NCBI RefSeq assembly: GCF_000723465.1
Contig: NZ_HF545616.1
Coordinates: 62,001-126,000 of the forward strand
Direction: 5' to 3'
DNA length: 64,000 nucleotides
Source of the DNA: Ruminococcus bicirculans (ex Wegman et al. 2014)
GTDB lineage: Bacteria; Bacillota; Clostridia; Oscillospirales; Ruminococcaceae
Positions 11,349 to 60,182 of the stretch are shown here, piece by piece. The notes under the pieces are model-generated. The model was not told the DNA's origin. It saw only the letters and a list, made by a program, of their open reading frames with translations, and did no database searches. The translations under genes were made by a program, and so were the position numbers. The stretch's first letter is position 1; each line of letters starts with the position of its first letter.

Positions 11349-12278
11349 TTGACGGATATAACAAACAGCGGGTTTATCCCCAAAAAAAGGACAGTTTGCG
11401 CTCTTGGACTTTTTGACGGAGTCCACAGAGGACATCAGCTCATAATAACAACGGCTGTGAAAAAGGCTCAGAGCCTTGACGGACATTCGGCAGTTTTCTG
11501 TTTCAAGACCGACACAGTGACCTCAAAAGGTCATGACGGCAGGATAGAAATGCTTATGAGCGACGAGGAAAAGCATAAAAAAATGGCAGAGCTTGGGGTC
11601 GAAGTGCTTTTCTCACCTGATTTTGCAGAGTTCAAAGGAATGTCACCGGAGGATTTTGTGAAAAAGGTGCTGAAAGAAAGGCTCAATTGCAGCGGTGCAG
11701 TGTGCGGAAACGATTTTACATTCGGCAAAGGCGCACAGGGCAAGGCTGTTGACCTTAAAAGGCTCGGTGAAAAATATGATATAGATGTGGAAATAGTAAG
11801 TCCACTGCTCATGGGCGGCGAGGTCATAAGTTCCACTGAGATAAGACGATGCGTCCGTGAGGGCGAGATAGCCAAAGCAAATGAAATGCTGGGTTATCAT
11901 TTTGGATTCTGCCTTGAAGTGGAACACGGCTTTCAGCGTGGCAGAACGTGGGATTTCCCCACGATAAATCAGCAGATACCAAAGGGCAGGGTAATGCCGA
12001 AATTCGGCGTTTATTGCTCCGCTGTTGAAATAGACGAAAATAAGTATGCAGGCGTGACAAATATAGGCGTAAAGCCTACCGTCCATGTTGAAACAGCTCC
12101 CCTTGCAGAAACCTTCATCATGGATTATCATGGGGATCTTTACGGCAGAAAGCTAAAACTTGAACTGCATGAATTTCTCCGCTCCGAAAAAATGTTTGAC
12201 AGCTTTGACAGCCTCCGTGAGGAGATAGCAAAAAACAAAGAGCAGGCGGTCAGATATTTTAAGGAAAATAAAATATGA
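11349..12278 (+). CDS. ribF: Bifunctional riboflavin kinase / FAD synthetase
   Basis: A 309-residue protein that makes FMN and FAD. The N-terminal nucleotidyltransferase half has LGLFDGVHRGHQLII and GNDFTFGKGAQG, then SSTEIRRCVREG; the C-terminal flavokinase half has RGRTWDFPTINQ and the GVTNIGVKPTV segment. It starts with TTG at 11349, 6 bases after GGAGG. The end overlaps the RAYT gene as ATGA. The truB-ribF order is standard in Firmicutes; what normally follows is rpsO, here replaced by the RAYT gene and gltX. Confidence 0.95.
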   Translation: MTDITNSGFIPKKRTVCALGLFDGVHRGHQLIITTAVKKAQSLDGHSAVFCFKTDTVTSKGHDGRIEMLMSDEEKHKKMAELGVEVLFSPDFAEFKGMSPEDFVKKVLKERLNCSGAVCGNDFTFGKGAQGKAVDLKRLGEKYDIDVEIVSPLLMGGEVISSTEIRRCVREGEIAKANEMLGYHFGFCLEVEHGFQRGRTWDFPTINQQIPKGRVMPKFGVYCSAVEIDENKYAGVTNIGVKPTVHVETAPLAETFIMDYHGDLYGRKLKLELHEFLRSEKMFDSFDSLREEIAKNKEQAVRYFKENKI

Positions 12279-12814
12279 CAAGTGAAGATTTGCCAAGACG
12301 AAAGAAAATACGTCTTGAGGGTTATGATTATTCTGCAAACGGCTTGTATTTTGTGACGATATGTGTTACTGAAAAATACCAAGTCCTGTGGGAGAATGTA
12401 GGGGCGAACAGTGTTCGCCCGCTGACTGCAAATGAAATTCTGCACCCAAAACTTTCTGTTACAGGAAAACTTGTAAAGAGAAAACTCACAAAGATATCTG
12501 AGCACTATCCAGACGTTTTTGTAGAGATGTCTTGTATCATGCCTGACCATGTGCATATTATAATCAAAATTGAAAAACAGCCGAAAAACGGGCGAACACT
12601 GTTTGCCCCTACAAGTGAAACACCGACACTTTCAAGGGTCATAAAACATTTCAAAGAGGCTGTCACGAAAGAACTAGGTTATTCCATATGGCAAAAATCT
12701 TTTTATGATACGATAATCAAAAACAGAAAGCAACACGCAGAAATAAGGCAGTATATTGCAAATAATCCTGCGAAATATGTAAAAATTGCATTTGATGAGC
12801 AGGATATGAAATAA
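12275..12814 (+). CDS. REP-associated tyrosine transposase (RAYT, Y1 HUH family)
   Basis: A 179-residue single-domain Y1 transposase. GLYFVTICV forms the first strand, MPDHVHIII (His 92 and His 94) is the HUH metal site, and Tyr 144 in QKSFYDTIIKN is the likely nucleophile, followed by RQYIANNPAKY. RAYTs act on single-stranded REP hairpins and are single-copy, vertically kept genes in many bacteria. Two REP elements lie inside the coding region: bases 12397-12421 encode VGANSVRP (about residues 42-49) and bases 12589-12613, inverted, encode NGRTLFAPT (about 105-113). Both fall between core secondary-structure elements. The start overlaps the ribF stop by 4 bases, and gltX begins 27 bases downstream, so it is transcribed with housekeeping genes. 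Confidence 0.9.
   Translation: MTSEDLPRRKKIRLEGYDYSANGLYFVTICVTEKYQVLWENVGANSVRPLTANEILHPKLSVTGKLVKRKLTKISEHYPDVFVEMSCIMPDHVHIIIKIEKQPKNGRTLFAPTSETPTLSRVIKHFKEAVTKELGYSIWQKSFYDTIIKNRKQHAEIRQYIANNPAKYVKIAFDEQDMK
12397..12421 (+). repeat. REP type A copy 1, inside the RAYT gene
   Basis: Starts TGTAGGGGCGAAC; GGGCGAACA pairs with TGTTCGCCC as an imperfect palindrome. In frame with the transposase. 24 of 25 bases match the reverse complement of the copy at 12589-12613. Confidence 0.9.
12589..12613 (-). repeat. REP type A copy 2, inverted, inside the RAYT gene
   Basis: Ends TTTGCCCCTACA, the inverse of the TGTAGGGG end. With the first copy it brackets 167 bases that include the HUH motif codons. 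Confidence 0.9.
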
Positions 12815-12841: not shown

Positions 12842-14290
12842 ATGAACAAGGTAAGAACAAGATTTGCACCTTCACCAACAGGTTATATGCACATAGGTAA
12901 CCTGAGAACAGCACTCTTTACCTATCTTATTGCAAAGCAGAACGGAGGAGACTTTATTCTCCGTATCGAGGATACAGACCAGGAGCGTTATGTTGACGGT
13001 GCTGTTGAGGTCATCTATAAAACACTTAAAGACGTTGGTCTTAATTGGGACGAAGGCCCTGATATCGGCGGACCTGTAGGTCCGTATATCCAGTCACAGA
13101 GAATGGGTATGTTCAAGAAATATGCCGAGGAACTCGTTGAAAAGGGCGAGGCTTATTATTGCTTCTGCGACAAGGAAAGACTTGAGGAAGTAAGAGCCAT
13201 TCAGGAAGCAAGCGGTATCGCTCCAATGTATGACAGACATTGCCGTAACCTCTCGCCTGAAGAGATAAAGGAAAAGCTTGACGCAGGTGTTCCTTATGTT
13301 ATCAGACAGAAAATACCTACAGAGGGCGAAGTTACTTTCCATGACGAGCTTTACGGCGATATCACTGTTGACTGCTCTACCCTCGACGACCAGATACTTA
13401 TAAAGACAGACGGTATGCCTACCTATAACTTTGCAAACGTCGTTGACGACCACCTTATGGGTATCACCCACGTTGTAAGAGGTAACGAGTACCTTGCTTC
13501 TGCACCTAAGTATAACCTGCTCTATAAGGCTTTCGGCTGGGAGATACCAACCTATATCCATGTTGAGCATATCATGAAAGATAAACAGCATAAGCTCTCA
13601 AAGAGAGACGGCGACGCTTCCTATGAGGATCTTATGAAGAAGGGCTATCTTAAAGAAGCCGTTATAAACTATATCGCTCTGCTTGGCTGGGCGCCAAAGG
13701 GCGAGAACGAGATATTCTCACTTGAAGAGCTTGTTAAGGAATTCGATATCCATGGACTTTCTAAGTCCCCTGCTATCTTTGACCCTGCTAAGCTTAAAGC
13801 TATCAACGGCAAGTATATAAAGGCTATGACCCCTGAGAAGTTTGCTGAGTATGCTATCCCTTATATCAAGCAGTCCGTTCATAGAGAGGACGTTGACCTT
13901 AACGAGATCGCAAAGCTCTTGCAGGCAAGAACAGAGCTTTTCACAGAGATACCTGAAATGGTAGACTTTATCGACGCTCTCCCTGAGTATGATATAGCTC
14001 TCTATACACATAAGAAGATGAAAACGAACCCTGAAAATTCTTTGGAATCTCTCAAAGAAGTTCTCCCTGTTCTCGAGGGCGTTGAGGATTGGACAGAGGA
14101 AAATATCCATGACGCACTCTTTGACCTTATCGGCAAGCTTGGCGTAAAGAACGGTATCGTTCTGTGGCCTCTTAGAGTTGCAGTTTCAGGTAAGGCGTTC
14201 ACTCCGGGCGGCGGTGTTGAGATATCATATCTCATCGGCAAGGAGGATACTCTTGCAAGAATAAGAAAGGGCATTGAGAAGCTGTCATAA
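12842..14290 (+). CDS. gltX: Glutamyl-tRNA synthetase
   Basis: A 482-residue class I aminoacyl-tRNA synthetase. [14 protein letters not shown] carries the HIGH-like motif at about residues 17-20, and HKLSKRDGD near residue 250 is the KMSKS loop. The C-terminal anticodon-binding helical domain ends with [35 protein letters not shown] precedes the ATG. It may be discriminating or non-discriminating; gatCAB is not in the window. It ends the operon that starts at rimP; a TGTAGGGG element lies just downstream. Confidence 0.96.
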
Positions 14291-42358: not shown

Positions 42359-42383
42359 TGTAGGGGCGAACACCGTTCGCCCG
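42359..42383 (+). repeat. REP type A copy
   Basis: TGTAGGGGCGAACACCG followed by TTCGCCCG. Confidence 0.85.
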
Positions 42384-59764: not shown

Positions 59765-60182
59765 GGAATGAGGAGTGAGGAATGAGGAGTGAGGAGTGAG
59801 GAATTGGCAAAGCTGACCAGAGTGGGATATCCAACATCGAGCGGAGCGAGAGGTAAAACGCAGGCTCAAGCCCGGCGTAAGAGGGCTTGCAGGGTCAAGG
59901 GACAGAGTCCCTTGCGGAGTTTGAGGCAGAGCCTCATTCGGCGTAAGCCGACTAGGTGCAGATTTAATGAGAAAAAAGCATATGAAAGTCCGATATTAAA
60001 CAAATGTGATATCGGAGCAAAAATCTGCACCGTTTTCCCTATCCCTTAGCAAATGTAAATCCGCAAAGAGCGGAGCGATTTTGCGGCGGAAGAACTTGCC
60101 CGAATAAGATGTAGGAGCTTGTTTGATAAATAATAAGATGTGCGTGCTGTGGAAAAGGCGGGTGAACACTGTTCGCCCCACA
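59744..60182. repeat. Long structured repeat, copy 2
   Basis: Eight heptamers GGAATGA or GGAGTGA at 59744-59799, then GAGCGGAGCGAGA, hairpins CAAGCCC/GGGCTTG, CAAGGGAC-AGA-GTCCCTTG (59896-59914), GAGGC-AGA-GCCTC, TCGGC-GTAA-GCCGA, outer stem GGTGCAGATT/AATCTGCACC (59955-59964 with 60022-60031) around TCCGATAT/ATATCGGA (59989-60016), then CCGCAAA/TTTGCGG (60061-60086), ending near TGTAGG at 60110 and an inverted type A REP at 60159-60182. The block 59915-59964 matches copy 1 (27064-27113) in 48 of 50 bases. The 426-base gap between the symporter and fumarase genes consists of this repeat. Confidence 0.85.
60159..60182 (-). repeat. REP type A copy, inverted
   Basis: CGGGTGAACACTG followed by TTCGCCCCACA. 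Ends 9 bases before the fumarase stop. Confidence 0.75.

Follow-up and report, generated by a model that had tools for sequence, protein, structure and literature searches.

RAYT transposases and REP sequences have been found together in several arrangements. A RAYT gene flanked by two inverted cognate REPs has been described as a REPtron (Nunvar 2010, PMC2817692), the inverted REP doublet has been described as a REPIN (Bertels and Rainey 2011, PMC3116915), and RAYT groups have been argued to co-evolve with their REPs (Corneloup 2021, PMC8266576, in the accessible text of which a word search found no mention of internal REPs). Palindromes inside genes are also on record. Intragenic REPs have been reported in other genes (Di Nocera 2013, PMC3733652), and Rickettsia palindromic elements (RPE) are palindromes inserted in frame in genes and tagged CGTC, repeats with which, according to the same source, no transposase is associated. 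Closest to our case, the main text of Quentin 2018 (PMC6006769) describes tnpAREP genes of subclass 2.4 that hold in-frame REPs, generally between HuH and Y, and notes that an inverted REP dimer could give rise to a double-foot REP by losing its centre. REPs within the reading frame of RAYT genes are thus already known, and the original prediction, which took REPs inside a RAYT gene to be undescribed, was mistaken in this respect. Two questions are open in this field: what keeps a REP family matched to a single transposase, and from what source new REPINs arise.

In this work, we have analysed a 64,000-nucleotide stretch of the Ruminococcus bicirculans genome (the window; NZ_HF545616.1, positions 62,001 to 126,000), which holds a RAYT-like gene with two REPs in its reading frame. 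The gene shares with subclass 2.4, as described in PMC6006769, the in-frame REPs within tnpAREP genes and the presence of long canonical and double-foot REPs; what we found described there does not include a second inverted copy before HuH, matching to the REPs of the genome or free copies of the segment between REPs. As in a REPtron, a RAYT is accompanied by two inverted cognate REPs, but here they lie inside the ORF and none is found within 600 nt on either side of it. As in a REPIN, there is an inverted REP doublet, but its spacer is the coding sequence for the catalytic HUH motif. As with RPE, the palindromes sit in frame in a gene, but the tag is GTAG and not CGTC. Our literature search, from which many journals and the supplement of PMC6006769 stayed outside, returned no title that deals with cognate REPs paired at two loops or with free copies of the bracketed segment, and a word search of PMC12306157 found neither RAYTs nor transposases. 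As far as this search extends, the paired, oriented and largely genome-matched arrangement, and the behaviour of the segment as a block, are new detail. We rather favour the explanation that the gene is a RAYT-kind HUH transposase carrying an embedded REPIN, that is, a cognate substrate linked to it in cis.

A RAYT-like gene with two inverted REPs in its reading frame

The features of the gene are as follows.

12275–12814, plus strand: RAYT/TnpAREP-like HUH transposase ORF, 179 aa (Y1_Tnp, REP_Tyr_transpos, alignment, fold)
12397–12421, plus strand: loop-1 REP, with GTAG tag at 12398–12401 and hairpin at 12402–12420; codes for VGANSVRP
12589–12613, minus strand: loop-2 REP, inverted, with hairpin at 12590–12608 and CTAC (tag) at 12609–12612; codes for GRTLFAPT
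12397–12613, plus strand: REP-to-REP bracket, an embedded unit resembling a REPIN, with the HUH motif encoded in its spacer (arms, folding)
12548–12556, plus strand: HUH codons H92-V93-H94, inside the bracket; both His invariant in the alignment
12704–12706, plus strand: catalytic Tyr codon Y144, outside the bracket; invariant in the alignment

The ORF matches Pfam Y1_Tnp (E 4.4e-8) and scores 49.3 bits against NCBIfam REP_Tyr_transpos, below the curated cut-off of 80, so that we regard the protein as a divergent member and call it RAYT-like. It has the HUH and Tyr residues of a RAYT, H92, H94 and Y144 being invariant across 53 aligned sequences (window protein included). The predicted model has a mean pLDDT of 87.7, and its best PDB fold match is 4er8_A, a RAYT with a REP hairpin. 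In this model the REP-coded stretches, VGANSVRP at residues 42–49 and NGRTLFAPT at residues 105–113, are modelled with lower confidence (ten-residue means 70, 67 and 75) and without assigned secondary structure, which agrees with the proposal that the REPs lie as loops between core elements.

The two 25-nt arms are complementary at 24/25 positions (96%), inverted and separated by 167 nt; coordinates, ORF and arm match all bear out the two in-frame REPs as originally described. On its tagged strand (GGGCAAAC) the stem of the loop-2 REP contains one mismatch. Each site has the form of a GTAG-type REP, a 5' GTAG directly before a GC-rich hairpin present in many copies, and, like the two halves of a REPIN, the sites are inverted and able to pair into a hairpin. 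The loop-2 REP lies between residues 94 and 144, and hence between HuH and Y, the position of the in-frame REPs of subclass 2.4. The 19-nt REP core, allowing up to three mismatches, occurs at 8 places in the window versus 0.01 expected. Chance or an assembly artefact was considered for these sites and excluded by the core counts, the genome copies and the second sample of relatives described below.

The start of the gene overlaps the 3' end of the upstream ORF, which we take to be ribF-like, by 4 nt (12275–12278), and the next ORF, presumably glutamyl-tRNA synthetase-like, begins at 12842 after a 27-nt gap; the RAYT thus sits inside an apparent housekeeping operon. No RAYT at E <= 1e-10 was found in the 8 other listed genomes of the same family.

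Two REP families in the window genome

In the 2.97-Mb genome we counted 101 forward and 99 reverse matches to GGGCGAACANNGTTCGCCC with up to two mismatches, palindromic places being counted on both strands, versus 0 for the control. Exact tagged copies of the window REP type number 60, of which 59 lie outside the gene, so the expectation that the gene carries its own genome's REP type held. By their sequence, the loop sites are paired, oriented REPs of the genome's own type. Elsewhere in the window this type occurs at the following places.

30359–30381, plus strand: scattered REP of the window-gene type, with a REP of the second RAYT's type at 30307–30332 (minus strand)
42360–42382, plus strand: scattered REP of the window-gene type
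27260–27282, plus strand: scattered REP of the window-gene type, degenerate (core search)
19553–19575, minus strand: scattered REP of the window-gene type, degenerate (core search)
34492–34514, plus strand: scattered REP of the window-gene type, degenerate (core search)
60160–60178, plus strand: REP core of the window-gene type, one mismatch (core search)

One further RAYT, 38% identical to the window protein, is present in the genome. It carries a different REP type, again inverted and at two similar places, and this type has 32 genome matches (up to two mismatches), two of them inside that gene. Since each RAYT has its own pair and its own scattered family, two REP/RAYT systems coexist in this genome. 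At 30307–30381 in the window, a mixed doublet joins a REP of each RAYT type across a gap of 26 nt. Among the REP places fetched from the genome there are also three doublets, 88–95 nt apart, oriented like the window pair.

The oriented pair in related RAYT genes

Two samples of relatives were assembled. The first comprised 79 loci matched by the window protein plus paralogues from 15 of their genomes, and gave 113 distinct ORFs, of which 82 were full length and 31 were dropped. The second was drawn from 147 genomes of the order, 31 of which had a RAYT at E <= 1e-10, and gave 45 loci with 48 ORFs; 21 were full length and 27 were dropped, later-fetched fragments staying outside these counts. The dropped ORFs of both samples were truncated, open-ended, short or interrupted by in-frame stops, and some were pieces of one gene.

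In 56 of the 82 full-length ORFs of the first sample a plus REP precedes the HUH codons and a minus REP follows them, and the same outward-tagged pair is present in 19 of the 21 full-length genes of the order-wide sample. When same-orientation flanking REPs within 200 nt are counted, the bracketed genes of the first sample rise to 67/82. The opposite orientation is rare inside ORFs (a minus REP before HUH in 3 genes, a plus REP after it in 5). After codon shuffling, an earlier set of 78 ORFs had 0.018 REP-like sites per ORF at a stricter threshold, and the second set had 0.048 per ORF at the final threshold.

REPs outside the gene are commoner where the loop REP is absent. An upstream plus REP accompanies 8 of 17 genes without a loop-1 REP versus 3 of 61 with one (p 1.2e-4), and a downstream minus REP accompanies 10 of 17 genes without a loop-2 REP versus 14 of 61 (p 0.0075), while the cross comparisons are not significant (p 0.14 and 0.70). 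In the orientation controls, upstream minus REPs were also commoner without a loop-1 REP (p 0.02), and the corresponding value for downstream plus REPs without a loop-2 REP was 0.11; the effect is therefore not purely oriented. Tree-independent contrasts, on a tree with many unresolved forks, pointed in the same direction and were not significant (median p 0.25; 5 and 8 supported contrasts). The order-wide sample is uninformative on this point, since 19 of its 21 genes hold both loop REPs.

Matching of the hairpins within genes and with the genome

The two hairpins of one gene agree at 0.947 of their positions versus 0.656 when shuffled (n = 50, 0/10,000), and the match persists in 40 genes under 70% identity (0.945 versus 0.644, 0/10,000) and in the second sample (0.928 versus 0.598 permuted, n = 19, 0/5,000). 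The stricter scan missed the window pair on account of its mismatch, so the sequence of this pair was entered into the test directly.

For the comparison with genomic REPs we used 43 genomes, the window genome and 42 chosen by eye from the 79 fetched loci, mostly those with GTAGGGG-type REPs. In 33 of the 43, the gene holds exactly one of three counted REP types. In five of these 33 the pair is kept and no counted type occurs outside the gene and the 600 nt flanking it on each side; in 21 of the remaining 28 the type of the gene is the commonest of the genome, and the observed score was not attained in any of 100,000 permutations. Seven genomes do not fit (G008, G009, G016, G028, G031, a tie, G036 and G041). 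The idea that loop REPs follow the genomic REPs across relatives thus held as a tendency better than chance, with exceptions. Of the earlier ideas on function, that of keeping element and gene matched fits best with this agreement of loop and genome types.

Paralogues account for some of the other types. In G029, and with a broken gene in G041, the other scattered type is that of a second RAYT (15 genomes were searched for paralogues), the three copies of the other type in G006 belong to a second RAYT and its edge, and paralogous RAYTs of other genomes likewise carry differing REP pairs. REP populations for which no matching RAYT was found comprise at least 10 copies in G016, G004, G034, G007, G024, G023 and G011, and are smaller in G028, G032, G005 and G030 (paralogue search in 15 genomes), and they speak against the matching of gene and genome; these genomes being all drafts, the RAYTs may be missing from them, or may have been lost while the REPs stayed. 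In G034, GAAC-type and GCAC-type REPs repeatedly form mixed doublets with starts about 46 nt apart (C39:1125, C39:1171, for example), and in this genome neither type was found in an intact RAYT.

Two related RAYT copies in G032 (C100:7691/7862 and C91:1540/1714) each have an identical REP pair, and a pattern search found the exact REP sequence of each in that copy only, a sign of the two loops changing together. Unlike loop REPs (GCAC/GCGC) are found in L101 and L129, and in their genomes close doublets joining the GCAC and GCGC types with tags inward occur, two in G042 and one in G024. In the asymmetric cases G119 and G154 the searched REP types are confined to the RAYT locus or nearby; with these counterexamples, we make no general claim of mirrored asymmetry.

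We propose that the RAYT would recognise the loop hairpins in single-stranded DNA as it would the scattered REPs, the gene acting as a cis-linked master copy of its own substrate. The internal pair would keep enzyme and REP family matched upon transfer or duplication of the gene, and would let gene and genome REPs exchange sequence; flanking REPs may do the same job in relatives without internal ones. Occasional use of the internal pair could remove or copy the HUH segment. A coding sequence with a cognate REP pair would be a direct answer to the question of how REPs and transposase stay matched, and comparison of the many natural REP/RAYT pairs, including cases of several different pairs in a single genome, could serve to map REP recognition.

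Copies and losses of the HUH-coding segment

A DNA search for the bracketed segment covered 31 genomes. In one relative, G183, the segment stands alone outside the gene, in two REP-to-REP copies (C19:23352-23558 and C25:73380-73585) that are 97.6% identical over 206 nt. The other long matches in this genome are RAYT copies (C25:73900-74065 and C20:62971-63171) and a contig end (C1). About 120 nt separate the C25 copy from the end of a RAYT copy whose loop-2 REP is lost, and because of this proximity the C25 copy may be a local duplication. The C19 copy is on another contig than that RAYT copy. With this bracket masked, one RAYT match was left in the locus (E 0.002), in the opposite direction and more than 500 nt away, and the surroundings are similar to those of an ordinary REPIN at C42 in G183 (93% on the left, 80% on the right), as if the interior of a REPIN had been swapped for the RAYT segment. 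G183 alone of the 31 genomes has full free-standing brackets, and none is present in the window genome. Derivation of the window genome's REPINs from the window bracket was considered and found no support, matches extending at most about 17 nt beyond the REPs among the matches listed. Rfam returned three matches, none near its gathering score.

Partial copies and losses were also found. In L206 the gene is partly duplicated, with one duplicate ending about 10 nt beyond the loop-2 REP, and a REP-bounded, internally deleted copy of the bracket lies downstream of the RAYT. A scan for partial copies gave eight middle-only places away from locus ends, of which three were accepted (L214, L220 and L206); the other five were rejected as overlapping the N-terminal part, antisense or too short. 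In the RAYT remnants of L105 and L209 the HUH segment is replaced by one REP with GTAG and CTAC ends, although that of L209 may have been double-ended from the start; L102 lost the segment and kept CTAC at the junction. The deletions in L148 and L159 left no clear REP scar. At L209 361-730, L102 4996-5300 and L159 1501-1960 the RAYT remnant is still an open reading frame that retains the C-terminal Tyr region, although the HUH segment is gone.

These observations bring up a further-reaching possibility, which we put forward tentatively: in RAYT genes of this group the HUH-coding middle would be a mobile cassette, the cargo of a giant REPIN embedded in the gene. The cassette could be copied out into REPIN loci, be excised with a double-foot REP left behind, and give rise to new REPINs after shrinking. 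If the cassette were copied out and shrunk, the gene would be the source of its own non-autonomous elements. The losses could also come from plain recombination, since the inverted copy of a palindrome is nearly a direct repeat too; ordinary recombination explains the copies at other places less easily. Bracket copies that lie apart from the gene suggest a route, open to testing, by which new REPINs may originate.

Possible passive insertion into tolerant loops

Near the published view, the REPs could be passive arrivals that land where they are tolerated, the RAYT loops being both tolerant and near the enzyme, and the copies being functionless; we consider this unlikely. The loops are indeed variable and without assigned secondary structure, extra loop REPs occur in L036, L041 and L087, for example, and the main text of Quentin 2018 (PMC6006769) places the variable region away from the DNA and the active site. 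Against mere tolerance stand the two fixed sites with a single orientation, both occupied in most genes, the pairs that persist without other copies of the counted types, and the hairpins preserved through paired changes. Moreover, 33 of the 39 REP places fetched from the window genome lie between ORFs of at least 100 aa (some overlap; the window gene is included).

Hairpin, messenger RNA or peptide

Self-control through the mRNA, in which an arm-arm stem, or a complex of RAYT and hairpin, would restrict translation or bring about cutting by RNase III, seems to us improbable. The long stem of the original prediction is the predicted minimum-energy RNA fold in 75 of 75 paired genes, an outcome expected from repeats that are inverted and near-identical, and the window segment has a folding z-score of -7.3; translation, however, would open the stem. 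Among the 38 genes whose REPs are 23 nt long, the two copies are identical in 24 and differ in 14, in six of these solely in the apical loop. Of the remaining eight, with stem differences, five have both hairpins fully Watson-Crick, two contain a G-T pair and one, the window gene, has a single mismatch, counts that lean REP-like because detection needs a GTAG tag and a hairpin. Those five genes, two of which are close relatives, keep their local hairpins and spoil the arm-arm match. The kept unit therefore looks like the single REP hairpin rather than the long stem.

That the encoded peptides carry a protein function, the DNA match being secondary, can practically be dismissed: the REPs are in frame, as expected from choosing ORFs without in-frame stops, but the REPs of loop 1 occur in two reading frames (52 and 13) and those of loop 2 in three (52, 11 and 2), with about 50 distinct 9-residue peptides per loop (each peptide window slightly overrunning the REP), so that the peptide is not the thing kept. 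Similarity by codon position is 0.62/0.61/0.62 inside REPs versus 0.57/0.69/0.37 outside (981 gene pairs), a contrast part of which carries the detection lean just mentioned. The loop REPs of the relatives are thus conserved as nucleic acid and not as peptide.

Similar elements were also seen farther afield. RAYTs in records titled Patescibacteria, Moranbacteria and Roizmanbacteria (L078, L084, L096 and L097) have REP-like palindromes after HUH; L078 and L084 have two each, both after HUH. RAYT matches were also obtained in four plasmid records and one phage record, at 28–35% identity, among them a RAYT-like protein (H5, MT839559.1 124-585; 35% identity) in a 4.8-kb record from human faeces labelled Bacteriophage sp.
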